Assembly: GCA_947172415.1 (NCBI GenBank)
Contig: OX359189.1
Coordinates: 8,508,501 to 8,572,500 of the forward strand
Direction of reading: 5' to 3'
DNA: 64,000 nt
DNA from: Chondrosia reniformis
Lineage: Eukaryota > Porifera > Demospongiae > Chondrillida > Chondrillidae
Shown: positions 23,124 through 57,248 of the stretch, piece by piece
Layout of the letters: the number at the start of each line of letters is the position of its first letter
Numbering within the stretch: the stretch's first letter is position 1
Notes under the pieces: model-generated
Databases searched by the model: none
What the model saw: only the letters and a program-made list of their open reading frames with translations
Told to the model about the DNA's origin: nothing
Position numbers and translations under genes: made by a program

Positions 23124-23288
23124 TTAATTGTATCCACTGCTACTGCTAGATGAACTCACTAATACTTCCTTCTGACAATTTGCAACAGTGGCATATTCTG
23201 TTCTCAGCATACTGTTATCCACATTGGCAGGTCCCTTTTTAAATTGTTCAGGATTAAGTTGGGCATATTCTACTTCCCCCTTCTTTTC
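23124..23288 (-). CDS. Receptor B terminal exon with ITIM and ITSM
   Basis: The exon is 165 bp, starts in phase 0 after TTTATTAG and ends at TAA. It encodes 54 residues starting EKKGEVEYAQLNPEQF. VEYAQL fits the ITIM consensus (I/V/L/S)xYxx(L/V/I), and 22 residues later TEYATV fits the ITSM consensus TxYxx(V/I). The tail ends in a serine run, SGYN. In vertebrate receptors such pairs recruit SH2-domain phosphatases or SAP-type adaptors. Its phase matches the TM exon at 23798. AT-rich 3' UTR follows. Confidence 0.8.
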   Translation of the reverse strand, partial: EKKGEVEYAQLNPEQFKKGPANVDNSMLRTEYATVANCQKEVLVSSSSSSSGYN

Positions 23289-23797
23289 CTAATAAATTCA
23301 AACATGCTAAATAACTTCAAATACCTCATCATATTTCATTCAAGGCTACTGACATACATGATTTCCTATTACAAAAATGGATGCTAACATAGCCTTAAGT
23401 AATCATTCTGTCATGCATCTAAGACACCACCAACTTTGCAAATATATAACAACAATATACGTACCTACGTATGTATGACATCTATACATACAGTAAATTT
23501 GGAAGGCATATCACACCTGCAGTTTGTCCAACATCAATTTACTGATATACGTATATAGCTGACAAATTAATATTAGTGTATGTACAATAAAACCTGTACA
23601 TTCTCATTTAAAACACACCATAATATCAATTAACAAGGTAGTGCCAGGATATATTGGAAGTGAAATGAGATCACATCAACTGTACCTCTAGACACTCATA
23701 AAGTAGGCAGATGAACCACCCAAAAGACAGGTTCAACGTACTTAGCAATACATAGGAAATGCCCATCATATGTACATATTAAAGTTAAAGCACATAC

Positions 23798-23943
23798 AGG
23801 GACTTCCTCTTCTTTTTCGTGGTTGCAATGAGATGATTTTGATCTTCCTCTTTTGTAGTATAATACAATTACAATAGGTAGCACAACAACAGTGAGAACA
23901 AAACAAACAGCTAGCACAATTCCTACTATCACCCCAGATGAGA
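23798..23943 (-). CDS. Receptor B transmembrane exon
   Basis: The exon is 146 bp, phase 1 to 0, with CTGCAG upstream and GTATGT downstream. It encodes SSGVIVGIVLAVCFVLTVVV and more hydrophobic residues to IVLYY, then a basic stop-transfer KRGRSKSSHCNHEKEEE. Type I orientation is implied by the ectodomain order. It joins the FN3 exon upstream and the ITIM exon downstream in frame. Confidence 0.85.
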
Positions 23944-24039
23944 CTGCAGAAAGTAAAGGAGAATTTAACACAAATTCATTTCAATAACATAGTTACATAT
24001 ATATAGCAATTTTAGAGTAATACATACATACACACATAC

Positions 24040-24338
24040 TTGAACTAGAAGTCTTCACAGTAATTTTTATAGCAGGACTTCTTTTTAAAGGCATATCCTC
24101 ACAATAGGCAAAAATCTCAACTTCATATTCTGTAGAAGGTTGTAGATTCTCTATAATATACTTCTTGTTAGATGTGTTATGATTTCCAAGAGTGTTTGCT
24201 GAGCCCATGCCATCCACTGAATTACATATTGAAAGTTGCATACACCTTGAAAGCAAGCATCAGAGTGACTCCATCTTAAATCAATAGTCACGTCTTCAAC
24301 TGAATGTTTGGGTTCTACTGGTAAAGGAACTGTGTTTC
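24040..24338 (-). pseudogene. Receptor B FN3 exon with a 1-base frameshift
   Basis: The borders (TTGTACAG, GTATGT) and both end phases (1-1) are intact. The first half reads VEDVTIDLRWSH..CNFQYVIQW and the second half STEYEVEIFAYCEDMPLKRS in another frame. The exon is 299 bp where a 1-1 exon needs a multiple of three, so one base is missing near 24185-24215. This is either an inactive allele or a sequence error. If real, receptor B is broken in this haplotype unless this exon is skipped, which would keep frame. Confidence 0.75.
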
Positions 24339-24437
24339 CTGTACAACATATTATGCATACTTAATCACAGTACTGTATCTGTACATACGTACGTATTTAT
24401 ATAGTATACCAAATACACAATGGTACTTTTAGCTTAC

Positions 24438-24785
24438 TCTTTTCTGAATCATTCATTGCTGTGTAATTTTGAACATCAACTGAAATTCTGTCATCCTCAA
24501 TAGCACCTTTCTTATATTGCACAGAACAATTAAAATGTATCTTATTGTTGAAGGTATGTTTAGAAGATGCTTGTACAGAAACAAAATTAATAGTACCATT
24601 TCCTTTTACTTCCTCGGCAATATCCTCAAAATTATTTTCTGTATTAATACACACAAATTTAGCCTTTTCAGATACAAAAAGTCGCTGACCATTAAGTCTA
24701 TCTTTCAAATCATGGTGGCTGCAGGTTACTTTAACATATCTATCATAGCAAACTCTTGTTTCATTTGCTGAAATTTTACATGGAT
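24438..24785 (-). CDS. Receptor B second Ig-domain exon
   Basis: The exon is 348 bp, phase 1-1 (CATGTAG, GTAAGC). It is Ig-like, 116 residues: DPCKISANETRVCYDRYVKV at the start, first cysteine in VTCSHHD, second in IHFNCSVQY, several N-x-S/T sequons. It resembles the dead Ig exon at 15391. Confidence 0.8.
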
Positions 24786-24853
24786 CTACATGAATATATA
24801 TAAAAGCTTGTAAGCTGTTAAATATGAACACAAAGCAAGGACCAATGACTAAC

Positions 24854-25108
24854 CTAGTGTTGTAAAGATAGTAGTAGCCCTTTCACTACAATAATTATCT
24901 GATGCACAAGCTTGTATACTGATATTGTATACTGTACTGGCAGTGAGGTTCTCAAACGTGTAATTTGTTCTTTCTGTTGTAAATTTTTCTGTTTCATTTA
25001 GTGTGATAGTAAAGTTAACTGAAGAACAAGGATAGTCATGACTCCATTCAAGGAAAGCAGAATTGCTTGTTAGGTCTTCCATAACAATGTTGTCAGCTTT
25101 TTTAATCT
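24854..25108 (-). CDS. Receptor B first FN3 exon
   Basis: The exon is 255 bp, phase 1-1 (TTTTACAG, GTTAGT). It encodes an 85-residue FN3 fold: EDLTSNSAFLEWSHDYPC at strand B, VNFTITL at C, YTFENLTASTVYNISIQA at E-F, TTIFTTLG at G. Its phases let it follow the N-terminal Ig exon at 31376-31687 across a 6.3-kb repeat-filled intron. Confidence 0.8.
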
Positions 25109-26640
25109 CTGTAAAATTTAGATAGTTTCAATAGCAAACTTTGAATGCTAACATTTACATCAGCTCATGCACATGTGATTTACTATACAAATTCCTATCT
25201 AGAGGTACATACATTAACCTTAGGGTGGTGTGGCTATTTACTAACAGTAGTGGCTAGATTGCATGCAGTGCTGAACATTCAGTCATCGGCCAAGTATCAA
25301 GCAAAAAAGCTGGTGCCGACTTTTGAGATGTTGGTCAGCCACCTTGTCAAAGTACAAAAATTACTTAGGTTATATTGTTCTGATTCAGGGTAGAGTTTGT
25401 AGAAGAGAAGTTTTAAAGTGCTGAGGGCCAACCTGCCCTGAAGAGAGACATTACCATGAAATGTGCAATAATTGGTGCACAGATCTTGATTGTGCATGGC
25501 CCAGTGGAGCATAGGAAGAAAGAAAAGACTCCTGTATCTTTATCCAAAGTTCTCTCCAGGTTTAGTTCCCTAAATAGGCTTTTTAATATACTACAGAGTA
25601 GGCATACATAGCATGTAGGTAAATGGTGTATTAAATTATTCATGAACGTCACAGGGTGAAGCGCAATTCAACAATTGATAAATTGTCAGGCCAATTAAGA
25701 TCTAAAAATTGTTTTCAGCGTTGTACACTGGTCATCATGGCTACTAATTCAGTAAAGATGAAGTTAGTCAACCACTCAATGAGGATGAGAATGTCAGTGT
25801 GGAAGAAGACACAAGCTGCAGATGGAAAATTGGAAAAAAACTGAGAAGTTATTACTATATGGTCTGTCAGGCTTGTATATAGACACAGTGTGTGTATGTA
25901 CGTATAATCAGATGTCAGGATTCACATCAAGGTATGAAGCATACAGCGAAAGTGAGTGAGGAGGACACTGGATGGGCTCAGGAAAACATTACTTATACTG
26001 TACAAGAAGATAGGTATGAACAAAACAAGATATGAAGGAAAAGCTCAAGTGTTTCACTATTATTGTTCAAGAATTGTCACTGTTTATAAAGATGAATAGT
26101 TAGGAAAGGAAAAATTATGCACATACAGTATTATAGTTCAGTATATACGTACGTACGTATACAACCATTCAGCTAGTAATTATGACTATATAAACGTATA
26201 TATGGACCAAGAGATTGGATACATGATTGATAAGTGACGGTGTTGCCTGATACATCCACTTAAGACTAGCACATTGCAACCTATAGCACTTCAGTAATAT
26301 AAGTACATATGATAATCTTATCTATAGAAATGGCTAGTTGACATTTACCGTATGACTCCTTATATATATTTTAATGTACGTAAGGTTACAACTTTTTTGC
26401 ATAATACAATTAATGTTATTCTCTATAGGGCCTAATAAAGGTAATTGTAGGGACAGAACTGACTCCATTTTACTATGGGATATGGGGAGGTAAGAAACAA
26501 ACTTAAAATATAATCGTTTTAACTCATTGACTTACAAAATACAGACTACAATTGAAACGTTTTAATTAACCACACAAATATTCAGTACTTAATGGTTATA
26601 TGATGTAGAGTATCTCAGAAACCATACAAATTGAATAGGA
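25109..26640. other. Intronic DNA of receptor B
   Basis: No exon. The stretch from about 25860 resembles 7380-8060 and 62200-62700 (part of the duplicated block). 25145-25850 is unique and shows no coding signal that I trust. Confidence 0.4.
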
Positions 26641-26913
26641 TACCGTATGGACCTAAATTTTCGCGGGACTAAACTTTCGCGGTGTTCAGTTTTTCGCGTT
26701 TTCATTTTCGCAGATGCTTCCTCACTCACGGTAGCCATATTGCGAACTATGATGTCATCGCGTTCTAAAATAGACGTACCTGGTAATTCTCTTGCACTTT
26801 TAAAGCTCTATAATTATAGTCTAAAATTTCGTGGGACTAAACTTTCGTGGATGGTTGCCAATCCACGAAAACCATGAAAGTTTAGTCCCGCGAAAATTTA
26901 GGTCCATACGGTA
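26641..26913. mobile_element. MITE, 273 bp
   Basis: Near-perfect 40-bp terminal inverted repeats: TACCGTATGGACCTAAATTT onward, complement at 26874-26913. No ORF of note. The motif TTTCGCGGGACTAAA is shared in style with the ends of the element at 17495, but the sequences differ. It lies at the join between two repeat blocks that are separate elsewhere in the window. Confidence 0.9.
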
Positions 26914-27788
26914 ATAAGGGTACATACATGTATGTGTACATACTAATAATCACTGTACTGTAACTGTAAGGAACCTCAAAATTAAACAAGACATGGATAA
27001 CTTATATCAAGAAGCATCAAATAGAGTTTAGAATATCTTTCTTTTGTTAAAATTTAAAATGGCTGCATTGTCAAAGAGAACTACATAAATGGCACAATGA
27101 AATAATGCCTCTTCGGATGATATTTGTTCTCGGTAAACTTGCCAAGCTCTGTAATTCAATGCTTTTCTTGTTTCAGAAAAGACAAGTACTACTAAATATT
27201 ACCAGAAAAGGTTCATCTAAAACTACAGTAGGCTAAACATAGCAGCTGATCATAGTCACTATGCAATTTTGTGGATAGAATGTCTGAAATGGGTTGCTCA
27301 ACCAGTGAAAGGAATGAAACTTCCAACAATGTTGCTTTAATGATACTATCTGGTTGTGCTGAAAAAGCAGTCAATGCATGAAGTTCAAGCTACCAGGTGT
27401 ACTTAGATGGGTCAAGATAGACAAAGGTCACTTGGAATGTCTCTCTACAGTGATTTTCCACATACGTAATACATAACATAAGACGTGAGATATATATTGA
27501 GGCTGCTCATTCATATATATCCTCAAGTTATTACATATATTATCAAATCTCTGTCAGTTCCTATCAAGTGTCTACATATCATACGTATATAGATATCTTG
27601 ATAACCTCAACATATATTTTATACTACCTCACATAGAACACCTGTAGACATGTGTCAAGTATTGCTATATACATACGTACTATAACTGTATACGTACATA
27701 TTTATTGTAACTGTATATATAGCGTGTACACACACTACAGCTACTATGTGGTACTATACCAGGTATATATATACGTACTTCATTACAT

Positions 27789-27938
27789 GAATTGGTTACA
27801 ATTTGAGCATCAGCAACACTTATTATAAATACTGGTTGTATGCCTTCCTCCTCATATATTGCTGAGGAAGACCTACGGGTTGAAACATCCTAATACTTTG
27901 ATTAATAATAAGTATTGCTGATGCTCAAATTGTAATCC
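27789..27938. repeat. Foldback repeat with hammerhead-like core, copy 2
   Basis: Same family as 6845-7002. The core 27862-27889 reads CTGAGGA-AGACC-TACG-GGTT-GAAACATC. The outer arm is shortened on the right. Confidence 0.75.
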
Positions 27939-30375
27939 ATTATGAACGCAACAAGTACTCCTTATTACTTCACTTTGTTACATGTACGTACGTATTTGTT
28001 GTCACTATTATCAATGTTTTGACTTACTCTTAAATAATCAACCAAGATGCAGTGAATACACAAAAGTATGTCAGATACACATGTGAGATGAAGGTTTCTA
28101 ATGACTAGTCCTATCTCACTGTTAATATGTCACCACTTATACATGAAAATAGGTTTAATGAAACACACTACAATTTAAGTATGGTAATTACACAAATAGG
28201 AATTGTATTTTCACAAATTAACACACTATACTACACCGATATACAGTCTGTCGGGCTTCTACACACAGTATGCATAATTAAATTAAATTACAATGAAGGT
28301 GAGTGAGTGAGGAGGAAGACATCGAATGGACTCAGATAAGCATTACTTATACAAGTATTCATGAACAAAACAAGATAAAGGAAAAACTGAAGTACGTATT
28401 TCACTTCTATTGTTCATGAATTGTCACTGTTTATAAGGTGAATAGTTAGGAAGGGAAATAGTGAATATTATACACACTGTTAGTTCAGTGTATACATACA
28501 ACCTGTCAATTAGAGAGTTGTGCTAGTGGATAGAACATACAACATACACTGATTAAATACCAAGAGATCCAGCATGATGTAGTAGTGACTACCTGAACGT
28601 TCCTTAGGACTAGCAGAATGCAAATTTAACTAAAACACTTTAGTAATGTAAGTGTGATACTTGAATCTAAAGAAATGGCATACTTTTTCATGTGTAAAGA
28701 TCTCAGAAACCATACAAAATGACATTGTCCTACATGAATGGGGTAACATGACCCCACACTGACGAACTGGCTGCACTCTGACTTAAAGATTTGGTGTACA
28801 CTGCATATGTGAATAAGCTATATGATGCAAGATGGATAGTCATTTCAATAACTTTCATTCTTACTACCACAAATAAGATTTACATAATACAGGCTACGTA
28901 CTTGGATGGTTTGACTTAATTTATTATCCTTCCTACAACTTGTACAGTATATTTACATATAATACTTTAACCTACGTACCTATGCGTGTAGTTTAGTTTG
29001 TACAGATGTAATGATTACTTAAAAAGCTAACATTTAATAGACACATTTATGTTAAAAGCAGATCACATAAAACTGTAGGTTTGAGAATAAATTGGTGCAA
29101 TTGAATTAGTGCCATTAAGGGGGAAAATATGTATTATTCAGTTATTTGATGTTTCAGATTGACATTCTAACAATTAGTCTCCTTCACATACGTACTACTT
29201 ACTATATGACTGCATAACAGTACATGTATGTATACGTACATACTAATAATCTGGAACTGTAAGGAAACTCTATATAAAACAAGGCATTGATAACTTACAT
29301 CAAGGGAGCATCAAATAGACTGTTGTTAAAATTTAAAATGGCTAGACTGTCGTCAAAGAGAACTAAATGTCACACTGAAGTATTGCTATAAGTAACACCT
29401 CTTGGGATTATAATGGTTAATTAATAGCTTTATAATAGCTGGACAGGATCAAATCTCAGATATTATATGGCATGAAACCTATTCAAAATCTCTTGATCAA
29501 AGGGTGCTCAAGTAGATTAATTTCACTGGTTTCAAGTTTTAACAGCCCCTTTTCATGTACTTTCATAACTTTTGAAATCTGGCAGTTCAAAGAGTTTCAA
29601 ATACGTAGATAGGTATCATGCAATCTGAAACCTGACGTTTGATCCTGTGTTGTTCTTGGTAAACTTGACAAGCCCAATAATTCAATGGTATTCTTGTGGC
29701 AAAGATAATTAGGTAGGTATTACCAGAAAAGGTTTGTATTACTGTATAAAAGAACACAACACTTATTGTACATATACTAGTAATCTTTATTGTCCAATAA
29801 ATATAGCAATAAACAATAGTATGCTTAAACATTACAGCTGATAGCAATCCCTGAAATTTATGGTTGCAATGGGATTTCTGAAATGAGTTGCTCAACCAGT
29901 GAAAGGAATAAAACTTCCAAACAATGTGGCTTTAAAGGAAGCTATCTGATTGTGTCAAATTAAAGGAACTGAATAAGCAGTCAGTGAAGTTCAAGCTACC
30001 AACTGTACGTACAGTAGATGGGTCAAGATAGATAGATCAAGGTCACTCGGTATATCTCTCTACAGTGGTTATCCACATAATACATAAAATAAAGAGGTGA
30101 GAATGTACAGTATCAAGGCTGCTGATTCACATTTATATATCCTAAACTTAATATATCATCAAATCTCTGTCAGTTCCTATGAAGTGCTGTTATACCATAA
30201 CATATACAGACATCTTGATAACCTCAACACATATTTTATACTATCTCACATAGAACACCTGTAGACAAGTGTCAAGTATTGCTATATACATACGTACTGT
30301 AACTGTATATATAATGTGTACACACACTACAACTATGTGGTACTATACCAGGTATATATACGTACTTCATTACAT

Positions 30376-31375: not shown

Positions 31376-31687
31376 CTGGTGGATCCACTGTAATGTTATT
31401 ATTACTGTAGACTCTTTCATTAGTTACTTGATCATCAGTATAACATCTGTAAGTGTAGACTTTATTCTCAAACTCTTCTCTGGTCACATTGATAGTCAGA
31501 GTAGTAACAGTCTTCTCCAAATTAACCATCTCCACATGTGTGGGATTTCCTTGTACAATGAAGAACACTCCATTCCTCTCCCACAGAAGAGTACTTGTCG
31601 CAAGTACAGGATGTGTACATGTTAACTTGTAGGTTTCATTGAAACAAGGAGGACTTGATGGAGCAGTGAGTGTAACAGTAGCTTCAC
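31376..31687 (-). CDS. N-terminal Ig-domain exon, receptor B
   Basis: 312 bp, phase 1-1 (TTTTACAG, GTAAAC), 104 residues: EATVTLTAPSSPPCFNETYK, KLTCTHPVL, LLWERNGVFF, TREEFENKVYTYRCY, VDPPG. It differs from the copy at 8246 mostly in the C-prime to E region (IVQGNPTHVEMVNLEKT versus LSTTASATHQSVETTPT), where a ligand-facing loop would lie. It follows signal exon 32144-32193 and is the likely N-terminus of receptor B. Confidence 0.85.
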
Positions 31688-40638: not shown

Positions 40639-42356
40639 ATGGAGGATAGAAGTATTCACAAATACTTTCTTCTCGAATATCTTCTAATCAGTTTTACCAC
40701 TAGCAGTTAGTACAATGTGCATAGCCTATATATATATATTACCAGTTGGATTATTATAAGCTAAGAGCATTAAGTTTTCTTATAATATTATATATATGTA
40801 ATTATAAGATTTATAATATTCCACCAGATCCAATTCAGCTGACTGTCGACCCGAGCAGTGCACTCCCCAGAAGTACTGTCAGAGCTATATGTACATACAG
40901 TGGAAATTTCAACGGAATTCTTCCAATTGTGAAAATAAATGGCACTCCTTATCTTCATGATCGAATAAGACAAGACCCAACTTTAAAAACTTTTGACTAT
41001 AATTTTGTAGAGAGCAGTAATATTACTACTTTTGAGCTCATTCACTCTCAAGTGCACCTGTGGGAATCAGGTACTACTTACCAGTGTTGCTTTCAAGATG
41101 AGGAACGCTATGAGATCTGCAGCAACACTGGAACACTTCTTGTGGTCCCAATACTCAGTCGAGTAGGACCCAGTTCTACTGGACTGCAATCAGATCCATC
41201 TAATGGTGGGTCAGGTTGACTATGTATATATATGTGAGCTTAATGTGCAACTTGCATCCATATTTACCTTTATATACTCTATATATGTTGCCAACTATTA
41301 TACCATATAGTCATTGAAAAATTACACTTTTATCTTATTATCTTATAAATCTATAGAACCTGTTATATCTTTAAGTCTAACAAATGACAAAGGAAATTAT
41401 ACAATACTTTTCACATCATCATATGAATCAACTCATTCACCAGTTAAGGTATGCATGTATTCATCCATTCATTTAGATAAGATATGAAAAATTTAATATG
41501 TACATCATTTTGTACATTACATTATATACAATTAATAGTTCAACCACTTGATGATGCACATCTATATACGTATATATATACGTATATATATATAGTTCAA
41601 TAGTTCGTACACACACTATATTATATATATAGTTCAATAATTCGTAACACACACTATATATATATATATATATATAGTTCAATAGTTCGTAACACACACA
41701 CACATACATATATACTGAAAGCTCTGGTCCTATTAGGTCTGAATAATAACTTGAATGACCTACATATATTATATAGGTTCAGGAGACAAAGGCTATTTAT
41801 ATAAGTACTATAGCTAGTGTCAATGATATGAAAACTAGAAAGGAGAATAATAGGACCTCAACACACAAAAGACGAGAAGGAACAACAGCTACTTTCAGTG
41901 TGTTATATTATATATATCTGTATCAATTGTATATTTATACAAATTTTCATCTTGAATACTTTGGTCAATTATTATTACATATGCAGGTTTGCAAGTGGTT
42001 GCAGGATCTGTTGGAGGTCTACTGTTTATCATAATACTTGGAAATATTGGTTTGGTAATATGCTGCTATGTATGCAAGAAAGGTATATATATACATACAT
42101 ATAACAGGCCATGCAAAACATCCATTTATTATTATGCATACTGTATTTAATGTTTTCCCAATCCTAATATGTATATATAATGCTGATGAATACCTCCGGG
42201 TTGAAATGTCCTAAAGTAGTAAATCAATGTTGCTGATGCTCAATAAGGCCTAGGGTTTATTCTCATGCATACTGTTTTATGTATGTATAATTATACTATA
42301 CATTATTTGCATATAAAATAGAGTATAAAGCAGAAGACCCTCATGGTCAGATTTAA
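40639..42356 (+). CDS. Gene D: complete one-Ig-domain membrane protein
   Basis: Six exons: 40639-40705, 40828-41205, 41357-41448, 41777-41897, 41987-42082, 42322-42356. The total is 789 bp, 262 residues, with all phases consistent. The start is MEDRSIHKYFLLEYLLISFT, a signal peptide. Exon 2 is a V-like Ig domain: TVRAICTYSGNF with the first cysteine, VKINGTPYL, SGTTYQCCF with the second. Exons 3-4 form a stalk without clear fold. Exon 5 is the TM (VVAGSVGGLLFIIILGNIGL then VICCYVCKK). The tail is short, ending EDPHGQI, with no ITIM. It is the only intact plus-strand receptor here; a partner-dependent or decoy receptor is possible. Confidence 0.7.
41540..41720. repeat. TA-rich short tandem repeat in gene D intron
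   Basis: Three or more copies of TAGTTCAATAGTTCGTA with (AC)n and (TA)n runs between them. Confidence 0.8.
42183..42210 (+). ncRNA. Diverged hammerhead-like core
   Basis: CTGATGA-ATACC-TCC-GGGT-TGAAATGTC with the 3' arm GTTGCTGATGCTCAA at 42229-42243. A diverged one-sided member of the foldback family, close to gene D's last exon. Confidence 0.35.
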
Positions 42357-42876: not shown

Positions 42877-43034
42877 TTAAGCATTAACATATTCCTTCTT
42901 AAGGTCGTCAGATGGAATCTTTACTTCAAGAGGAATGTAGGATGGATTCAATTGTTCCACCATCACAGATCCACATTCTTCATCTTCATCTTCATTAGTA
43001 GGCTCTTCATGTCCATACTGATGAGCACCACTAC
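42877..43034 (-). CDS. Receptor C terminal exon, YIPL/YVNA tail
   Basis: 158 bp, phase 1 to stop. Residues: SGAHQYGHEEPTNEDEDEEC, then SVMVEQLNPSYIPLEV and DDLKKEYVNA at the C-terminus. The final YVNA fits the pYxN Grb2 SH2 consensus; YIPL fits YxxL/YxxPhi. It is nearly identical to receptor E's tail (47905-48074). No ITIM pair. Confidence 0.8.
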
Positions 43035-43173
43035 CTAAATAGAGGCCTAGGTATGTACGTATATACATACTGTACATCTATTTATAGACTGAGTATATAG
43101 TGGATTGGGTATTACATGCATATATATACGTAATTAATAGGTGGTTACCATATGAATACTAATATGTATATAC

Positions 43174-43293
43174 CTTGTTTGTTTTTCCATCTCTTACACA
43201 AACATGTACTCAGTAACATGATGACAAATAGAACAACAGCAGGTGCTAAAATTCCATTTCCAATAAGTGATCCAATTAGACTAGAACGCAGTT
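43174..43293 (-). CDS. Receptor C transmembrane exon
   Basis: 120 bp, phase 1-1 (GTTTTAG, GTATAT). SSLIGSLIGNGILAPAVVLF followed by VIMLLSTCLCKRWKNKQ, a TM plus basic stop-transfer. Paralogue at 48349. Confidence 0.8.
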
Positions 43294-43433
43294 CTAAAAC
43301 AATTGATATGGCATGCAATTAATACTTAAAGTTTTAACACAATAATATTAAATAATTCCATTACACTTGTCAATGACTTCTATATACATGTCCACTCTGT
43401 ACATGCATATACGTATATACACTTTCAGCTGAC

Positions 43434-43784
43434 CTTTCTTGCAGTCCATAACTTCCACATTAACAGGTCTACTCTCCTCTACAATTCCATCGGCTAGAGT
43501 AACAGAACAGGAGTATACTGTATTGCTACCTACACTAAGTGTCTTCAGTACAGTTATAAACATGATCAAAGTTGTTCCAGTTGAAGATGATCTTATTCTG
43601 TAATCAGAATTGTTGCTTAAATCTTCTATCACTTGACCATCTTCCATTATAATAGCTTCTTGATTATTTAGTAGCAAAGCAGTGGTACCATTACAATTGG
43701 ACATGATTCTATTATAAGAGCACTCTAGAATTGGATGATCCCCTTCACAGACTGGAGAATTTAGCACTTCAAGAGTGGTAGTAG
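43434..43784 (-). CDS. Receptor C Ig-domain exon
   Basis: 351 bp, phase 1-1 (ATAATAG, GTCAGC). 117 residues: TTTLEVLNSPVCEGDHPILE with the first Cys pair region CSYNRIMSNC, IMEDGQVIEDL, LKTLSVGSNTVYSCSVTLAD with the F-strand cysteine. Paralogue at 48842. Confidence 0.85.
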
Positions 43785-43850
43785 CTATTATAGAACAAAG
43801 TGGATATACATATTAAATTATAATTCAGATAAAGCTTTAAAAGACACATA

Positions 43851-43880
43851 CATACATACATACATACATACATACATACG
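43851..43880. repeat. (CATA)n microsatellite
   Basis: Seven or so CATA units in the intron between receptor C's Ig and FN3 exons. Confidence 0.9.
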
Positions 43881-43883
43881 AAC

Positions 43884-44168
43884 CTGATGTGGCAACTTGT
43901 CTTTTTAGAGGTAAACTTGATAAACCATTAAGTGTAACAATATGAATTGAAATGTCATAGCAAGTCTGAGGTTGCAGTCCCTCTATTGTAAAGACAGTTA
44001 ACGTTATATTTGTGATTGCTGTGGGGTAGTCATCATCAGTGGTAGATTTCCAGGTTACTATGTATGTAAATACTTCATTTGTAAAACACTCAATTGATGA
44101 ATTCCATTCTAGAGTAATCTCTTTACTTCCTTGCTTTAGTTGTGTTAAAGTAGGAATATTCGGTTTCT
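43884..44168 (-). CDS. Receptor C FN3 exon
   Basis: 285 bp, phase 1-1 (TTTGTAG, GTTCGT). 95 residues: KEITLEWNSS at strand B, VFTYIVTWKS at C, FTIEGLQPQTCYDISIHIV at E-F, RQVATSG at G. It lacks an internal ATG, so simple ORF searches miss it. Paralogue at 49297. No N-terminal Ig exon is seen upstream before 45980. Confidence 0.85.
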
Positions 44169-46152: not shown

Positions 46153-46269
46153 TCATTTGGCATGGACAGTTTGATAGTCCACTATATACATTTCATTTTC
46201 CACTACTCTTGTGTTGTTTGTCTGCTGTTCTTTAAATGATAAATCAACGTAAGTTACACTTCCTTCACT
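46153..46269 (-). CDS. ITIM-pair terminal exon, second receptor
   Basis: 117 bp, phase 0 to TGA, acceptor AATCTCTAG. 38 residues: SEGSVTYVDLSFKEQQ and RVVENEMYIVDYQTVHAK. VTYVDL fits the ITIM consensus; VDYQTV is a second (V)xYxxV site. It aligns with receptor G's tail (ITYADLTF, VVEYTSI). It joins in phase 0 to the TM exon at 47202-47356. Confidence 0.8.
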   Translation of the reverse strand, partial: SEGSVTYVDLSFKEQQTNNTRVVENEMYIVDYQTVHAK

Positions 46270-47065: not shown

Positions 47066-47201
47066 TCGTTTACGTACTGGTAATGTAGTATTGTAACTGT
47101 TTGGTTGTGCTTCAAAAACCTAAGTATCCAAGAACAAAAATAATCTGTTTTACTTGAGTACAGTTAAATAAATTACATCTATCGTTATGTAAAGGACATA
47201 C

Positions 47202-47356
47202 CATTTCAGGAGTAGGTTTGGGCTGAGACATCTTAAATTTATAGCAAGCCACTCCCAGAATCAAAAACAACAATAAAATTGCAACTGCTAAAAGGACCCC
47301 AATTGAAGCACCAATAATAACATCTGGTCCAGAAGTCCTTTCTGTTGGATTTACTG
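47202..47356 (-). CDS. Stand-alone transmembrane exon upstream of ITIM tail
   Basis: 155 bp, phase 1 to 0 (ATATAG, GTATGT). VNPTERTSGPDVIIGASIGV, then LLAVAILLLFLILGVACYKF and KMSQPKPTPEM. It has no ectodomain exon of its own next to it: the exons just upstream are receptor E's complete TM and tail. It may be an alternative membrane/tail pair for the upstream Ig and FN3 exons. Confidence 0.8.
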
Positions 47357-47904: not shown

Positions 47905-48074
47905 TTAAGCATTAACATATTCCTTCTTAAGGTCGTCAGATGGAATCTTTACTTCAAGAGGAATGTAGGATGGATTCAATTGTTCCACCATTACAGAACC
48001 ACGGTCTTCATCTTCATCTTCGTTAGTAGGTTCTTCCTGTCCATCCTTCTCTATGCCCCGATGGACACCACTTC
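47905..48074 (-). CDS. Receptor E terminal exon, YIPL/YVNA tail
   Basis: 170 bp, phase 1 to TAA. Starts GSGVHRGIEKDGQEEPTNED, then the same SVMVEQLNPSYIPLEV and DDLKKEYVNA as receptor C. The last 35 codons are nearly identical to C, suggesting recent duplication or gene conversion. Confidence 0.8.
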
Positions 48075-48221: not shown

Positions 48222-48300
48222 ATCTAATGTATACATCTATCGGAATGAATGTATACATCTAGTGGAATGAATGTATACATCTAATGGAATGCAGCTGGAT
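48222..48300. repeat. Short tandem repeat, GAATGAATGTATACATCTA
   Basis: Three to four imperfect units in the intron between receptor E's TM and terminal exons. Confidence 0.8.
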
Positions 48301-48348
48301 AATGTCCAGTGGAATATAGATTATATCAGATGAAAAACATGTATATAC

Positions 48349-48477
48349 CTTGGTTGCTATTCCTTTTCCTATACAAACATGTACTCATGATCATCAAAAT
48401 GATGACAAGCAGAACAACAGTAGTTCCTAAAATTCCATTTCCAATAAGTGATCCAATAAAACCGGAAAATAGTTCTA
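48349..48477 (-). CDS. Receptor E transmembrane exon
   Basis: 129 bp, phase 1-1 (TGTTTAG, GTATAT). SGFIGSLIGNGILGTTVVLL then VIILMIMSTCLYRKRNSNQ. Confidence 0.8.
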
Positions 48478-48841: not shown

Positions 48842-49189
48842 CATTCTTGCAGTCCATAACTTCCACATTAACAGGTCTACTCTCCTGCATAGCTCCATCG
48901 GCTAGTGTAACAGAACAGGAGTACACTGTATTGCTACCTACACTAAGTGTCTTCAGTACAGTTATAAACATGATCAAGGTTGTTCCAGTTGTTGATCTTA
49001 TTCTGTAGTCAGAATTGTTTTTTAAATCTTCTATCACTTGACCATCTTCCTTTATAATGGCTTCTTCATTATTTAGTAGTGAAACAGTGGTAGCATTGCA
49101 ATTGGACATGAATCTATTATAAGAACACACTAGAATTGGATGATCACCTTCACAGACCGGAGAATTTAGTACTTCAAGAGTGGTAGTAG
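48842..49189 (-). CDS. Receptor E Ig-domain exon
   Basis: 348 bp, phase 1-1. 116 residues: LEVLNSPVCEGDHPILVCSY, IKEDGQVIEDLKNN, NTVYSCSVTLADGAM. It is one codon shorter than receptor C's exon, in the loop STTGTT. Confidence 0.85.
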
Positions 49190-49296
49190 CTATTATAGAA
49201 CAAAGTGGATAAAACTGGATATACATACATATAATGATATTAAATTATAATTCAGATTCATATATACAAAGCTTTAGACTATACATGCATGCTCAC

Positions 49297-49578
49297 CTGA
49301 TGTGGCAACTTGTCTTTGTAGAGGTAAACTTGAAAAATTATTTGGCGTAACAATTTGAATTGAAATGTCATAGCAAGTCTGAGGTTGCAGTTTCTCTATC
49401 GTAAAGACAGTTATATTTGTAATTGCTTTGAGGTAGTCATTATCAGCGGAAGATTTCCATGTTACTATATATGAGAATTCTGCATTTTCAAAACACCCAA
49501 CTGATGAAGAATTCCATTCTAGAGCAATCTCTTTACTTCCTTGCTTTAGTTGTGAAAGAGTTAGTGTACCTGGTCTCT
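49297..49578 (-). CDS. Receptor E FN3 exon
   Basis: 282 bp, phase 1-1 (TTTATAG, GTGAGC). 94 residues: RPGTLTLSQLKQGSKEIALE, FSYIVTWKSS, QTCYDISIQIVTPN, RQVATSG. Its phase would also accept splicing from receptor F's exons upstream. Confidence 0.85.
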
Positions 49579-51564
49579 CTATAAAATTAAAAACAACTGA
49601 AATTAAATCCTTCAATATTAATTTTGTTATATATACATATTAAAGAAGAAACATAAAGGTTTGATAAGCTCCCAAAACAAACTATAGACAGCTACATACA
49701 TATTTTAATTTAATTTAATAGTAATTTTAAATAAAACAACCAGACAGAAATATTTAGCTAAACCATCAGATCAACACTACTTAATAACTATTGGCAATTC
49801 AACACAAATTTCCGCACTTTTCAAAATTATTAAGGCGTGCTATATAGTAAACCGCCGTTATATTGCAATTGCACGTATACGTAGACGCTACTTATCTGAC
49901 AGAGTTCAAATTAGCTGTAGACGTTGTGTTGCCCCTATCGTCTATTAATTAATCAGAATACACTGTACATGGAACTGAATTTCGTGAAGGAATTTAAAAA
50001 CTTCAAAACTCACAAGCACTGAACAAAACAATATACTGTAACTGAAGGTGGTTGCCCATAGGCACTGTCTTATTAAAAAGTTACACATCAATATCTATAT
50101 ATATAGCTTGTTTTTGACCACAATCGATCGTATATATACATCGATCGATCAAGCACTAGCTACTGTCATGAACAGCAATCCACCATCTTCCATGCACACG
50201 TGACTACTATTATTTTTTATGCAAAATATGGATGCCAACCTTTACATCATTGATCATGAAGAATTTCAATCACCTAAAGGATGGCACTATATAGCATAGT
50301 TAAGATAAGTAATTGCATACAAGACTGGCAATTGATTAATTATATACGTACAGTAACTTAATTATTGGATTTAAGTGTGTGAGTTGCACAAAGCTAAATA
50401 CTTAGAAATGAAAACTACACTTCTAATAAATTTGAGCATTAATTGCACTGAGCAGTGCAAAGGCTATGATGATAAGCAAAAAATATTCAATGGAAGATAT
50501 TACGCCAAACCAGCCAAGTGACCGAAGTCTAATCTTGGCTGGGGGACCGAAGTCCTATATTAAAATGGCAACCAGTGATCGCCTCCCCAGTCATTCAAGA
50601 TATATCTTTCAGTGATTTTTTTGCTTATCAAATTTGAGCATGCAGATATTTAAACATAACAAGCAAAACTTATAGACATTTAAAACATTATTATTGACAG
50701 TTTAGTGGTGTGTGGAATTGCAATCATTAACAAATTACATATATTATATATATTATTATCATTTATTATTGTTATTAGAGTGCATTGTTTGCAGAGCACA
50801 CAAGAGCCTAATGGCTCCATGTAGCACTGTACATAGAAAATATAAATAAATTATATGTAGTGGTAAATAATATAAAAGCTTTCTCATGTTACAGCTAAAC
50901 AGAAGGTAAAGGGTTGATCCCTCATATCATGTGCATAAGCTGAAATTCTTCCACTTTATCCTGTATAACAGAAAAGAGGTGCATTGTCATTCTGTTGTGA
51001 AACCTCTGATGTACATGGAATTCCATGCCTCATCAGCACTTTACTTTTCAAAACAAGTATTTCGAGTTGTGGGGCGCCACGCCCCCTCAAAACTCGAACT
51101 ACTTGCTGGTCCTTAGATATCCGGTTAACCGATTCCGGTCGTTGCTTGATTGCCGTCAACTTCAAGACCATATCTTGCAGAAAACGTTTTTGCGCAAGCT
51201 CTACATTACATAGTATTAGTAAGGTTGGTTTTTTAAATCGATTTCGTTCGTTGAATGTTCTACGCTAAGGAAGAGAAAGCTAATTTTAAGCTAGAAAACC
51301 AAAGCCACCCGAACGTCCGCCATTTTTTGACAGATTATAAGGTTACGAACAGGAAGCCAACATACGTAGTTAACACAGTATTGTTCACAAGTTCTGGGTT
51401 ATTGATTTCCATCTGTAAAATAATTATAGAAAATGAAGAATATTGTAGTAAAATACAACTATCACAATGGACACATTTGCATGGACAAAACCATGTATAT
51501 ATGTACATGTATGTATATATGTACTTGTATAAGGTATACATTAAAGGGGGGTCAATATGCTTAC
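49579..51564. other. Intergenic or intronic, no exon seen
   Basis: 49640-49830 and 50168-50440 match 15960-16260 and 17459-19890, the flanks of the dead receptor. They show the empty sites of the transposons there. 50931-51330 is a GC-richer repeat with the hairpin at 51054. Confidence 0.45.
51054..51105. repeat. GC-rich palindromic hairpin, site 2 of 3
   Basis: CAAGTATTTCGAGTT pairs with AACTCGAACTACTTG around GGGGCGCCACGCCCC. It is followed by GGTTAACCGATTCCGGTCGT, shared with 19500. Confidence 0.7.
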
Positions 51565-51714
51565 ATTCTTTGTTTCACTGTCACTTTCTGGTTGACACTT
51601 TGGGTTCTTCTGATAGCACTTCTTAGAGTATATATACAATTATAAGAACTGTAGTTACAGTCAATAGGAGCACAACAGCAGCAACACATCCAACAGCTAT
51701 TCCAATAATGAGAC
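51565..51714 (-). CDS. Receptor F transmembrane exon, tail out of frame
   Basis: Acceptor CAACACAG, phase 1. It encodes LIIGIAVGCVAAVVLLLTVT, then TVLIIVYIL and TAA at 51623-51625, directly after the membrane. In another frame the DNA continues as KKCYQKNPKCQPESDSETKN up to a GTAAGC donor at 51564. The exon is 150 bp where the family pattern (phase 1 to 0) needs two bases more. The shift lies in the TATATA run just before the stop, pointing to a dinucleotide slip. As written the protein has no cytoplasmic tail. Confidence 0.65.
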
Positions 51715-51924
51715 CTGTGTTGACACTCCCAGTAACTCACAGGGGGGATAACTGAATGTACAGTAAGTAAAGAGAATACAAACATAATTAAGTATACGTA
51801 TAGAGTAAAGCATATAATATTACTCACACTAATATAATATGCTTAAAGTACACATTCATGAATTATCTAAAATATACCATTTTAATATTCCAAAATCAAT
51901 ACCTAAGTAAAAGCATGAACTAAC

Positions 51925-52209
51925 CAGTTACTGGATATTGAATTTCTATCGGATCACTCTCTTCCACTCCTCCTGTCATTAAGTGTATTGAACAAGAAAC
52001 CTCATCTCCATCATCAACTGCCATATTAACAGTCTGAAAGGGTTCAGTGTTAATTATGGTCACTTCACCAGTTACATTAATACCATTCCTCTTCCAGGAT
52101 ATTTGGGGAGGATCAGAATAGATTGTATTCTCACTGTTGTTGTACATGCAAGTCAGAGTGGCAGTGTTATTGTATAATGACATCGACACTTGTGTTACAA
52201 TGACTCTCG
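51925..52209 (-). CDS. Receptor F second Ig-domain exon
   Basis: 285 bp, phase 1-1 (TAATTAG, GTTAGT). 95 residues: VIVTQVSMSLYNNTATLTCM with the first cysteine, PPQISWKRNGINVTG with the Trp, VDDGDEVSCSIHL with the second cysteine. Confidence 0.85.
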
Positions 52210-52317
52210 CTAATTAAATTGGACATGCAGTATATAATGGAGAGAGCTAGAAATGACCCATAAGCACTAGATATGGCAATGTACATCTTGCGTATACAGA
52301 ATGTACGTAACACTAAC

Positions 52318-52587
52318 CAAAAGTTGTCAAATACATTCTTGAAGAATTGGAGCTATTAGTTCCATTAGGAAAAATCTCCGCACTGTAATTTGTGTTTGGA
52401 TCCAATCCAGAAAACATGAATTCTGTTTCATCAGTTGTATTGTCAATGATAACTTCATTGTTGCTTACTCTGGTACATCTACATCTATAAGTGGTACCTG
52501 GAAAGCAAGCTAGTTCTACCGTAGTCCAATTACAAAAGACTAATGTGCTTCCTTTCAGGTCAGAAGGAGTCATTAGAATGAGCTTCT
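52318..52587 (-). CDS. Receptor F FN3 exon
   Basis: 270 bp, phase 1-1 (ACATCAG, GTTAGT). 90 residues: EKLILMTPSDLKGSTLVFCN, FPGTTYRCRC, FMFSGLDPNTNYSAEIFPNG, MYLTTFG. It joins the N-terminal Ig exon at 53854 in phase. Confidence 0.8.
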
Positions 52588-53853
52588 CTGATGTATGTAC
52601 AGGGAAAAATACAAACATCATTGCAAATCCAGAAATAAACATATTCACTATACCCTCTCCTTTATTAATCTTGTCCCAAAGGAGGCAATAAGATTTGAAT
52701 TCTGCCAGTATAACAGCAGGTTTACAGTAGGTCAGTGGGTCAGAAAATTCGAAATACTTTTTCTTGATGTACTTGTTGCAAGCACTGGCATTCCTACTTC
52801 TACCTTCATTTTTAAATGTTTTTAAGTATAATAATTTTCCTACACTTGAAATTCGGGTTGAAACTACGTATATGTAGTCTCAAACCTTCAACTGGAAAAC
52901 TTGTAAAACATATACAAAAGAACCTTTCTAAGTTCATACATATCACATTGACTTTCCACATAAGGTGTGAGAATGTATTGAGGCTGTTCATTCACTTTGG
53001 TTCTAAAGTTAATTATCAAATCTCTGTCAGTTCCTATCAATTGTACTGGTATACCATAACATATACAGTCATCTTGATAACCTCAACATATATTTTACAT
53101 AGAATACCTGTAGACATGTGTCAAGTATTGCTATATACATGTACTGTAACTGTATATATAATGTGTACACACACTACAACTACAATGTGGTACTATATCA
53201 GGTATATATACGTACTTCATTACATGAATTGGTTACAATTTGAGCATCAGCAACACTTATTACAAATACTGGTTGTATGCCTTCCTCCTCATTTATTGCT
53301 GAGGAAGACCTACGGGTCCAAAGGTCCTAATACTTTGATTAATAATAAGTGTTGCTGATGTTCAAATTGTAACCAATTCATTATGAATGCAACAAGTACC
53401 CCTTATTACTTCACTTCATTACATGTACGTATTTGTTGTCATTATTATCAATGTTTTGACTTACTCTTAAATAACCAACCAAGATGCAGTGAACACACAA
53501 AAGTATGTCAGATACACATGTGAAATGAAGGTTTCTAATGACTAGTCCTATCTCACTGTTAATATGTCACCACTTATTCATGAAAATAGGATTAATGAAA
53601 CACATTACATTTTAAGTATGGTAATTACACACATAGGAACTGTATTTTCACATATTAACATGCTACTACACTGATATACAGTCTGTTAGGCTTCTAAACA
53701 CAGCTCAGGACACTTTTACTGTTCACGAATTATCACTGTTTATAAAAATGAATAGTGAATAGGAAAGGAAATAGTGAATATTATGTAATCATTGTTAGTT
53801 CAGTGTATACAACCTAATCACTTCAGAGAACTTGTACATGTGTTAAAACAAAC
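52588..53853. repeat. Receptor duplication block, copy 3 intron
   Basis: 52960-53850 matches 30090-31300 and 61580-62200, including the foldback repeat. No exon. Confidence 0.7.
53226..53379. repeat. Foldback repeat with hammerhead-like core, copy 4
   Basis: Arms as in 30376-30529. The core 53299-53326 reads CTGAGGA-AGACC-TACG-GGTC-CAAAGGTC: the G12-equivalent is C, so predicted inactive. The 60007 copy shares the same change. Confidence 0.75.
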
Positions 53854-54156
53854 CTGGTGGATCCACTGTAATGTTGTTACTGTAGTCCTTTTCATCAGTA
53901 TTTCGATTCTCAGTAAAACAAGTGTAAGTGTAGACTTTATTCTCAAACTCTTCTCTGGTCACAGTGATAGTCAGAGTAGTAGTAGTTGTACTAGTCTCAA
54001 CTTCATCATGAGTGGTACTAGCTTTAGGACTAAAGAATACTCCATCCCTCTCCCACAGAAGTGTACTTGTCACAAGTACAGGATGTGTACATGTTAACTT
54101 TGAGGTTTCATTGAAACAAGGAGGACTTGATTCAGTGAGTGTAACGGTAGCTTCAG
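53854..54156 (-). CDS. N-terminal Ig-domain exon, receptor F
   Basis: 303 bp, phase 1-1 (TTTTACAG, GTTTGT), 101 residues: EATVTLTESSPPCFNETSK, KLTCTHPVL, LLWERDGVFFSPKASTTHD, TREEFENKVYTYTCF, VDPPG. It is three codons shorter than the 8246 and 31376 copies. No obvious signal exon is seen upstream. Confidence 0.85.
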
Positions 54157-54568
54157 CTGTAAAATGTATCAGAACTTTTATGTACAAATACAATGCTGGA
54201 ATAGTGATCCATAAAACCCACACTGAGCAGCAGAATATTATAGGACTTACACAACTGGAATTATTTTGAATGATTAAAGAGGTTCTAGCTATAACACTTG
54301 CAATTAACTAAGACAACATGAACTAAAAAAGTGAGTGTTACATAAATCAGCATTCTAAGAAATAGCCCCCGTTTATAATCTTTTTATATACAGGTTAAGA
54401 AAAGCCTAGTATAGTTATTAATAGTTATACTTACATTGCTCCTTGAATGAGCCAACACATGCATAATATTATGGATGCAGCACAACCACCTCAAACTCAA
54501 TCCCACAGACCAAGCTCCATGTTAATATCCATCCACCTTGCAAATGTGTGAATGTCTCACTATAGACA

Positions 54569-54669
54569 TTAAACAGGTTTCTGAATATTCTCCCTTCCTT
54601 TGACTATATATACTGTGATGTAGTTTGGTCCTCTTCCAATTAAGCTATATTTCTCAGAAACTTGAGTTC
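54569..54669 (-). CDS. Unrecognised coding-like terminal stretch
   Basis: After TTTTACAG it reads GTQVSEKYSLIGRGPNYITV..ENIQKPV and TAA. The next 100 bases read FNVYSETFTHLQGGWILTW in another frame. Possibly one ORF with a frameshift. Family not recognised. Confidence 0.25.
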
Positions 54670-56358
54670 CTGTAAAATTATGTTACTAGGTTAAGAATGG
54701 TGTGTGATTACCAGTAACTAGTACATCTAACTAAAGAAATGTGATAAGCCTTATCATACAGAAGTTGGCAATGCATATTATACTAAAATTTAAGTAATTA
54801 ACTTAAACATTTACACTCTGAGTTTGGGCCCATGCACTATTCCTATATATACGTAGCTACTTCAGCTTGGTGTGCCTTTATGCTTGATTAATAATTAGAG
54901 TGTGCGAGAACCTACGTATATACCTTGCACAGTATATTGTATATGCATAACGAGGAATACAAAGTACCTCAGTATGACAGGTTACCTCAATCCAACAAAG
55001 TACTTTTGTAATTGCTCTTTCTTATATGCAGTACATTTTGTAAATTTTAATAAACATAATTCATATGTATCCTTAAAACATTAAGAAAAGTACTCAATAT
55101 GTAAAATAACAGGAAATTCAATGGTTACATGACATATGTATCAATGTATTTTTTAGCATAGCAGTCATTTTTGATAGGAGTGTTAGAAATTCTCCCTATA
55201 TAATGGAAGAAAATGTCAATCATCACTACTCAAACATGTATACCAAATTTACCATACAGACAGTTGTTCTATATTGACTAAAAGTAAGGTAGTACAAATT
55301 AAAGCTGTCATGCAAAATATTGTATATAATCAATCAATGATTAACCAGTTTGACCTTCGATAAACTTTAAAAATGAGTTACAAGTAAAGCTTAAAAAAGA
55401 GGATTTATGGACATTGAATAGAAACAGCTGGACAGGTATGGAAAAAATTACTCTAACTTGTAGTCTGTGAATGCTTTTAATTTAACACTATAGTTGAGTC
55501 TTTACTCGTATAATTAAAATATTTACCATTAGCAGATCACATCACAAAAAGTCTAAACTAAACTTGTAAACTGTTTATATACAGAATTAGTGGCGAATAA
55601 GTAAACGTTATTGTATAATATCATAGTTAGATTATTAGAAACAAAGTTGTTTCGAATTAAGAGACGGTTAAGTGATACTTAGCATATAAATTTAGGAGGG
55701 CTTCCTGTAACAGATCTACGCTTGAAATTTGGCCATCTTCGGTTCAGAAAACCTAAGACTTTAAACATACCTTACGAATTTCTTTTCTTACTTTTCACCA
55801 GCCAGCTGTTCAGTTTTTGATATCATAATTATTGCTTCTGGGATTTTAGAATTATGCAGCACTAATGCTTTTTAATGTGAATATTATCACTAAAAACATG
55901 TGCATATTTTAATAACTAACCCATTCACCGTGGTATTAATAGGCCCTATTCAATGCATATTATCAATTAACACCTCATAAATCAACAAAGATCCAAATTT
56001 CAGTTGCATTGGAGTGTTATACGTATATGCCATATATGCATGCCTTTCCAAATGCCAAAAGATTTTGCAATGCTATAGAGACTGTGAAGTGGGATACTAG
56101 GTTGGCTAGTAGCTGCCTGATGTTCTTCTAGCCTTGTCTCCAAGGTCTTCTTAGTCTCTCCGGAGAGAACTGGTGAACAGGGATCAGGGTTTCAGCATTG
56201 ATGGTTATTGGAAGTACTTCATCCAGAGAGAAAAACAGAGACAGAAAGATAGACCTAGGCCTAGATGACGTTTTATGGCATCATTAGTTTCTGTCCAATC
56301 AGTGTGGAGATAATATAGTTTTTAAAAACAAATTTCATATTGCTTTGTTTAGTGCACT

Positions 56359-56391
56359 CTGATGAAGGCCACAGCACGTGGTTAAAATGTC
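56359..56391 (+). ncRNA. Hammerhead-like core, separate context
   Basis: CTGATGA-AGGCCACAGCACGTGGTT-AAAATGTC. The stem II candidate CCAC/GTGG is clear, but the G12-equivalent is missing. Not in the foldback family. Confidence 0.3.
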
Positions 56392-56725
56392 AGTAATTTA
56401 TTGTGAATTGTTGAATTCTAATCACTTGGTTTAATCGAAAGAATCATCACCATAATATATAGACAACATTCATAAAGTGGTTAAACAGAAAAAGCCCAAT
56501 TCAAAATTTTTGAAATTATTTTGAAAATTTGAAAAAAATCCAAATAATGTTGCAATCAAAGAGAGAAGAACAGATAACCAAGATCTTTTAATTAAAAAAT
56601 GGTGGCTAAAAGGCACCAATTTCAGCACAGTCAGAATCCCCATATCAAAGGATTTAATGACGATTTAGACCTAGTATATGCTGGTATACATAAGTTTACA
56701 CTAGCTCATTTGAAAACAAAAGAAA

Positions 56726-56782
56726 CAAGTAATTTGAGTTAAAAACTCGTGGGGGCTGCCGCCCCCGCATTCGAACTACTTG
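56726..56782. repeat. GC-rich palindromic hairpin, site 3 of 3
   Basis: CAAGTAATTTGAGTT pairs with ATTCGAACTACTTG around GGGGGCTGCCGCCCCC. Confidence 0.65.
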
Positions 56783-57122
56783 GCTGCATCATTGGGATTT
56801 AATATATATATTCCTAATATTAACGATTGAGGACACTTAAGTGTCCTGAACATTATAAATAGCGACAAAAAAGCCTCGTTAACTAAAGCTTCCTGAACCC
56901 CTCCATTTGCAAAAATGATATATTGATGTACGTATAAATTAAGTGTTATAATAGTTTCGTATCATCACGTATTATATATATATATCGGTCTATATATACT
57001 TCCATAACATGAAGCCATACGTACAATGGAATCGGCAAATGAAAACAATATAAGGGGCTCTGACCTAAAACAGCTATACGTATATTAGATATTTAGTGTT
57101 TAAAGAGTGTGCTAGTATAAAC

Positions 57123-57248
57123 TCACAATGACCTTTTCTGAATACTAGTGTATTCTACTACATACAAATCATTCTCCACTGGTTTTATCTCAGACATTTC
57201 AGTTTGAAATGTCAAATCAGCATAGGTTATGTTTCTAGGTTCGCTGTC
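57123..57248 (-). CDS. Receptor G terminal exon with two ITIM-type motifs
   Basis: 126 bp, phase 0 to TGA (acceptor TTTTAATTAG). 41 residues: DSEPRNITYADLTFQTEMSE and IKPVENDLYVVEYTSIQKRS. ITYADL fits the ITIM consensus, and VEYTSI is a (V)xYxxI site in the ITSM position. The order and spacing match 46153-46269. Confidence 0.8.
   Translation of the reverse strand, partial: DSEPRNITYADLTFQTEMSEIKPVENDLYVVEYTSIQKRSL

Follow-up and report, generated by a model that had tools for sequence, protein, structure and literature searches.

Two tyrosine sites in the tail, placed in a set order, are a familiar feature of the vertebrate receptors PD-1, BTLA, SIRP-alpha, PECAM-1, the Siglecs, KIR and LILRB. 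Such sites are described by two consensus sequences, that of the immunoreceptor tyrosine-based inhibitory motif (ITIM, [SIVL]xYxx[ILV]) and that of the immunoreceptor tyrosine-based switch motif (ITSM, TxYxx[VI]). In PD-1, VDYGEL is followed about 25 residues further on by TEYATI, and SIRP-alpha contains ITYADL. The same order of two sites is found in three receptor genes, A, B and C, on chromosome 1 (contig C1) of the demosponge Chondrosia reniformis. They lie in a stretch of 64,000 nucleotides (C1 8,508,501-8,572,500), referred to below as the window. The tail of gene A combines VEYAQL with TEYATV, close to the PD-1 pair, and ITYADL recurs in the tail of gene C. Unlike the vertebrate receptors, the Chondrosia family carries FN3 domains and has an ITSM-type site in the A lineage only, and its resemblance to them is just a weak one at the level of immunoglobulin (Ig) and FN3 domains. 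From sequence comparison we consider it rather probable that these genes belong to a family of type I Ig/FN3 receptors peculiar to this lineage, whose members share a homologous cassette of two ITIMs about 24 residues apart and would inhibit through SHP-type phosphatases.

By our comparison the nearest analogues are the Alr complex of Hydractinia and the fester co-receptors (FcoR) of Botryllus. Alr, according to the available portions of two reports, is a large genomic cluster of single-pass Ig superfamily (IgSF) receptors in a non-bilaterian animal, as in Chondrosia, and candidate genes of the Hydractinia allorecognition complex carry ITIMs or immunoreceptor tyrosine-based activation motifs (PMC11067881, PMC12065747). 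This likeness is one of descriptions and concerns the genes alone; Chondrosia differs by its joint Ig and FN3 architecture and its common two-ITIM terminal exon. The FcoR are presented, in the text accessible to us, as type I IgSF receptors with ITIMs encoded in one locus, again as in Chondrosia, and alternative splicing of the oligomorphic FcoR loci can swap the signalling motif. Their ectodomains comprise V-type Ig, sushi and two C2 Ig domains, whereas Pfam scans of the partial Chondrosia models gave no sushi domain. A 2025 review, as far as its accessible text goes, states that the proteins put forward for allorecognition in sponges, cnidarians and ascidians are not mutually conserved, and proposes that the common part is the intracellular machinery which reads binding, citing the ITIM-type motifs of Botryllus and Hydractinia (PMC12065747). 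The complex described here may bear on the question of self/non-self receptors in sponges. In the open-licence literature, surveyed in part and with subscription papers mostly outside the survey, we found no report of sponge ITIM receptors or of this complex.

A conserved two-tyrosine tail cassette

The terminal exons of genes A, B and C (Table 1) were first pointed out in an earlier note on the window, which described them as ending in an ITIM followed by an ITSM and suspected a sponge-like genome, rightly as it turned out. All three lie on the minus strand behind an AG acceptor in phase 0, remain open until the stop codon and encode two tyrosine sites in the same order. The label ITSM fits TEYATV of tail A, the only site of this type among the three; VDYQTV of tail B and VEYTSI of tail C are second ITIM-type sites. 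We rejected the motif pair alone as evidence. In this AT-rich DNA, open reading frames (ORFs) that run from an AG to a stop and contain two loose tyrosine motifs are common, and a scan of the window gave 20 of them, including tails A, B and C. The case against chance therefore rests on homology and spacing.

In a genome-wide search the mutual match of tails B and C has an E value of 0.034-0.038. The genome searched represents one haplotype of C. reniformis and has 117,379,552 bases in 15 contigs (C1 10,409,357, C3 9,415,654, C4 8,954,400, C5 8,804,818 and C6 8,731,016 bases). The accessible text on the assembly odChoReni1.1 of this species lists, apart from a mitochondrial genome, 14 scaffolds amounting to 117.37 Mb, with chromosome 1 of 10.41 Mb and chromosomes 3, 4, 5 and 6 of 9.42, 8.96, 8.80 and 8.73 Mb (PMC12181767). 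Searches with seven tails (A, B, C, E, F, I and J) and small fetches recovered 16 distinct tail exons that are homologous; the true number may be higher, since tails D, G, H, K and M did not serve as queries; a further DNA match at 8593672 falls within tail A2 and is not a separate copy. The earlier note would have given up its reading if related species lacked the tyrosines. Among paralogues of this one genome both are kept in 13 of the 16 tails, all 13 on the minus strand of C1 between 7.71 and 8.97 Mb. Of the three tails set aside, one (L061, at 8.5959 Mb) is a shortened copy, and the other two (L075 and L076, on C10) are decayed and almost identical to each other.

The cores of the 13 tails are 0.18-0.97 identical in pairs (median 0.33), and four columns are invariant: the first tyrosine, the leucine at its +3 position, an asparagine placed seven residues before the second tyrosine in most tails, and the second tyrosine itself. 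Every one of these columns uses more than one codon (TAT 11 times and TAC twice for either tyrosine, four codons for the leucine). Compared among paralogues only, the first site is a strict ITIM throughout (13/13), the second in 10 of the 13 tails. At the −2 position the first site has V, I or L; the second has T in A and A2 only and V in the other 11, so that ITSM does not describe the family. The two tyrosines are 24 residues apart in seven tails, 25 in two, 23 in one and 22 in two, and 23 by hand count in the thirteenth. When the residues of tails A, B, C, E, F and I were shuffled, a pair spaced 22-25 arose with P = 0.0001 to 0.007 for each tail. The evidence that tails of this sponge receptor complex share a conserved two-tyrosine cassette is, in our view, strong.

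Its tyrosines need not call on a phosphatase. YADL, YAEL, YATV and YTSI all match YxxPhi, the consensus of an endocytosis and sorting signal that some animal adhesion receptors use, which favours AP-2 endocytosis of adhesion receptors over SHP recruitment. However, sorting needs neither the restricted −2 residue seen at both sites of all 13 tails nor a spacing of 22-25 residues, and the three tails without a hydrophobic residue at +3 of the second site still keep its tyrosine and the V at −2. We regard sorting as an unlikely explanation of the cassette.

Genes A, B and C

Upstream of the three tails the earlier note had seen transmembrane (TM) exons in matching phase. The phase 0 acceptors agree with this, and partial spliced models of gene B (FN3, Ig-like, TM, short exon, tail) and gene C (FN3-like, Ig-like, TM, short exons, tail) are open across all GT-AG junctions, with consistent phases in both. 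The splice junctions proposed there were incomplete because two short cytoplasmic exons of gene C (57955-57911 and 57390-57361) and a candidate one of gene B (47119-47078) had been passed over. Matching phases and open frames suggest that TM and tail exons are joined to the Ig/FN3 exons by splicing.

Locus B offers one FN3/Ig pair two possible ends, both open: module 1, without an ITIM, and module 2, with the ITIM tail. By analogy with what the accessible text describes for FcoR, two TM/tail modules could permit a swap of signalling motif. Two paralogous units, at 44.2-42.9 kb of the window and in L067, both have the first, non-ITIM end, and neither showed a relative of tail B next to it.

Gene C was compared with gene D (L060) over window positions 56950-58853. 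The FN3 exon differs at 25 of 294 bases (8.5%); the three introns and the 3′ flank differ by 0-2.3% (97.7-100% identical). As synonymous and non-synonymous differences are both raised in this exon, it may have undergone gene conversion exon by exon, diversifying selection, or the two together.

The window tails might also be remnants or unused exons of a decaying gene cluster. The frame is broken in the second FN3 exon of gene A and in a TM region at 51.7 kb, tail B sits behind another tail, and decay is apparent in the two C10 copies and the shortened C1 copy. We nevertheless find this very improbable, given that 13 of the 16 homologous tails retain both tyrosines with synonymous codon variation and that the partial models of genes B and C are open throughout. 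Tails F and G moreover differ by six synonymous changes and one non-synonymous. The other three pairs lack such an excess (C-D 0:5, A-A2 2:4, J-K 3:4), and pairwise dN/dS was accordingly rejected as a selection test, the outcome being mixed; the deep alignment was relied on instead.

The receptor complex on chromosome 1

The cluster of Ig/FN3-type receptors recognised in the window reaches far outside it. With the Ig1-type exon 54154-53855 as query, 189 candidate relatives were obtained genome-wide. Scores are available for 150 of them, with E values up to 5e-4, and some of these matches are partial or split. The interval C1 7.70-9.46 Mb (1.75 Mb) holds 117 of these scored relatives, among them 57 of the 69 strongest, a large linked IgSF cluster of the kind known from Alr and FcoR. 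Of the scored relatives outside this interval, 10 lie on C10, 8 on C4 and 6 elsewhere on C1. The FN3 exon of gene B gave 131 genome matches, mostly within the same interval. Not all receptors carry the cassette, as the tail 48074-47905 and its two paralogues have no ITIM. In two further loci the exon order can be read by eye within 1.3 kb: L072 has FN3, TM and tail, L074 Ig-like, FN3-like, TM and tail. The TM exons of the tail-bearing loci L072, L073 and L074 carry another tyrosine near their end (NIYQ, NVYQ and NVYQ), upstream of the ITIM exon.

The FN3 assignment is secure in some members, which reach 45 and 47.5 bits (the latter in the L072 model with its tail attached) against a Pfam cut-off of 25 for fn3; genes A and F are among those above it, gene B is below, and gene C gave no match. 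The Ig assignment rests on Pfam scores under threshold (cut-off 27 bits for Ig_2) and on weak PDB matches, mostly to proteins that are Ig by name. This was so for 12 of 12 PDB matches of the Ig1 profile, none of them with an E value better than 0.14, and for 24 of 29 with the profile of the second Ig exons; the remaining five comprised four entries for ROS kinase and a poxvirus protein. Of four Ig1 exons covered by a simple scan for signal peptides, one is preceded by a weak candidate.

The size of the complex and the divergence of its members invite the guess that it serves in recognition of self and non-self or of microbes, and the case for any particular biological role is weak. A bolder proposal would make C1 7.70-9.46 Mb a histocompatibility or immune-receptor complex of the sponge, a fast-diverging Ig/FN3 array in which a paired-ITIM cassette acting through SHP, in places with a swappable second tail, has spread among ectodomains. 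The receptors of sponges, cnidarians, tunicates and vertebrates, though unrelated, would on this proposal each have acquired the same two-site brake. We consider the proposal rather doubtful.

SHP-type phosphatases and the proposed mode of action

Two adjacent loci on C3 (9.105-9.117 Mb) each contain SH2, SH2 and protein tyrosine phosphatase (PTP) exons in this order, the arrangement of SHP phosphatases, and an exon with SAGIGRTG from the PTP signature is seen at both. The SH2-SH2 part and PTP start of the first locus match PTPN11 at 1.7e-90 over 253 residues and PTPN6 at 2.9e-75. Such loci were to be expected, since Shp2 homologues have been reported, in the text accessible to us, from the sponge Amphimedon and from choanoflagellates, and predate animals (PMC7260276).

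If the receptors are expressed as modelled, a Src-type kinase would phosphorylate both tail tyrosines once a receptor is engaged or clustered, and the phosphorylated pair would dock one or other of the two SHP-type phosphatases through its tandem SH2 domains. Bidentate docking would then locally damp neighbouring activating signals. In vertebrate receptors such as PD-1 the two sites are some 25 residues apart, and the spacing held at 22-25 in Chondrosia would suit a pair of linked SH2 domains.

The signal could have the opposite sign, with the tails recruiting SHP or other SH2 proteins for a positive or adaptor function. In many animals SHP2 acts positively in receptor kinase pathways. The age of the Shp2 homologues, as given in the available part of the report cited above (PMC7260276), implies that their ancestral role need not have been inhibition. 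The 102 exon-level SH2 matches in the Chondrosia genome leave room for other partners. On the other hand, a short receptor tail with two ITIM-type sites is the known inhibitory arrangement of vertebrates, and a positive role seems to us improbable. Our confidence in inhibitory signalling by the cassette is moderate.

One run of SH2 exon matches lies at C4 2.906-2.963 Mb, on the same chromosome as an Ig1 cluster at C4 2.51-2.69 Mb. PTP exon matches number at least 173 in the genome (best 150 of 531 candidates scored), with dense arrays at C6 0.6-1.26 Mb, C6 6.6-7.0 Mb and C13 1.65-1.96 Mb, which suggests a large expansion of phosphatase genes.

Relationship to known receptors

The family is best read as working like the vertebrate ITIM receptors, with no detected homology to them. 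No relationship to Siglecs, SLAM receptors or PD-1 emerged from the gene C search (E up to 1, 324 candidates) or from PDB searches, and for this reason, as well as for the lack of an ITSM in 11 of the 13 tails, we do not place the family with them. The gene B ectodomain and the two Ig profiles gave weak PDB matches only, to Ig proteins including CD80 and OX-2, to FN3 proteins, and to protocadherin-15, ROS and a poxvirus protein. The earlier note had left it between convergent and ancient receptors; convergence fits the sequences better than ancestry, since no sequence relationship to these receptors is detectable, although undetected similarity is no proof. The core of what that note observed is confirmed, with corrected details and a wider reach, and its interpretation is partly supported.

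Several findings weigh against an inhibitory Ig/FN3 receptor family of this kind. The tails were said to sit on Ig/FN3 ectodomains, but tail B has none of its own and would reach one only by splicing 48842 to 47356, past module 1. In gene A no frame stays open when exon 24338-24040 is included as modelled, whereas the model that omits this exon is open. Pfam immunoglobulin models stay below cut-off in genes B and C, none apart from the phage-tip model Ig_J matches gene A, and one Ig1 member has no Pfam match at all. The +3 residue of the second site departs from the consensus in three of the 13 tails (VDYSKC, and VEYATT twice), and some copies are broken, as noted above for L061, the C10 pair and gene A. 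The invariance of the tails is partly an artefact of finding copies by similarity, from which the codon variation is exempt. Finally, protein searches with genes C and F identified no homologue in a clearly different species. That with gene C gave none at E up to 1 among its 324 candidates; that with gene F gave 37 proteins (12 of the 37 examined), 36 from ENA contigs and one a distant JGI metagenome match. The ENA contigs are probably other assemblies of C. reniformis, because one of the proteins (P0003) repeats an ORF of L066.

A sponge complex with a paired-ITIM cassette and SHP genes would extend to Porifera the idea of shared machinery put forward in the accessible text of the review (PMC12065747). 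It also supplies particular genes, peptides and an interval of the chromosome for testing.

Other features of the window

Table 1. Receptor exons of the window (window positions) and the two-tyrosine tails of C1
Feature	Position	Strand	Remarks
Gene A, terminal exon	23124-23288	minus	EKKGEVEYAQLNPEQFKKGPANVDNSMLRTEYATVANCQ, continuing to the stop; VEYAQL, TEYATV; Y-Y 24
Gene A, TM exon	23798-23943	minus	
Gene A, second FN3-like exon	24040-24338	minus	internal frame change
Gene A, Ig-like exon	24438-24785	minus	similar to other second-Ig exons; no Pfam immunoglobulin-domain model
Gene A, FN3 exon	24854-25108	minus	fn3 31.9 and 31 bits
Ig1-type exon upstream of gene A	31377-31685	minus	putative part of the A transcript
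Gene B, terminal exon	46153-46269	minus	SEGSVTYVDLSFKEQQTNNTRVVENEMYIVDYQTVHAK, then stop; VTYVDL, VDYQTV; Y-Y 25
Gene B, candidate short cytoplasmic exon	47078-47119	minus	VFEAQPNSYNTTLP; phase 0
Gene B, TM exon of ITIM tail (module 2)	47202-47356	minus	
Locus B, alternative tail (module 1)	47905-48074	minus	NPSYIPLEV, ending KKEYVNA; stop included; no ITIM
Locus B, TM exon of module 1	48349-48477	minus	
Gene B, Ig-like exon	48842-49189	minus	common to both putative products; Ig_2 22.5-23.6 bits
Gene B, FN3 exon	49297-49578	minus	fn3 23.4 and 19.8 bits
Module-1 paralogue of gene B	42880-44166	minus	FN3 44166-43885, Ig 43782-43441, TM 43294-43175, tail 43035-42880; no ITIM tail
Gene C, terminal exon	57123-57248	minus	DSEPRNITYADLTFQTEMSEIKPVENDLYVVEYTSIQKRSL, then stop; ITYADL, VEYTSI; Y-Y 24
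Gene C, short cytoplasmic exon	57361-57390	minus	QTKVTPMQLE; phase 0; GT-AG, open frame
Gene C, short cytoplasmic exon	57911-57955	minus	IKPKDVDLSREIDHT; phase 0
Gene C, TM exon	58031-58161	minus	
Gene C, Ig-like exon	58220-58498	minus	Ig_2 19.3 bits
Gene C, membrane-distal exon	58559-58852	minus	FN3-like by position alone; no Pfam fn3 match
Ig1-type exon upstream of gene C	62920-63249	minus	putative part of the C transcript
Neighbouring receptor, Ig1-type exon	53855-54154	minus	query for the genome count
Same neighbouring receptor	51926-52588	minus	FN3-like 52588-52319, Ig-like 52207-51926
Another receptor unit, Ig1-type exon	8247-8555	minus	
Two-tyrosine tails, part 1	C1 7.7121, 7.7266, 8.5054, 8.5317 (A), 8.5547 (B), 8.5657 (C), 8.5939 Mb	minus	
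Two-tyrosine tails, part 2	C1 8.6881, 8.7068, 8.8170, 8.8302, 8.9465, 8.9708 Mb	minus	

The TM region of the neighbouring receptor (51727-51559) has extra bases relative to its paralogues, which break the frame. On the plus strand, an Ig-like-looking exon without a Pfam match is followed by a TM-like stretch at 41987-42142 (40725-42142 in all). A long simple-repeat tract with several frames open on both strands occupies 21036-21479, and a histone H2A fragment adjoins the receptor cluster on the plus strand at 5733-6050 (Pfam Histone_H2A_C, 72 bits).

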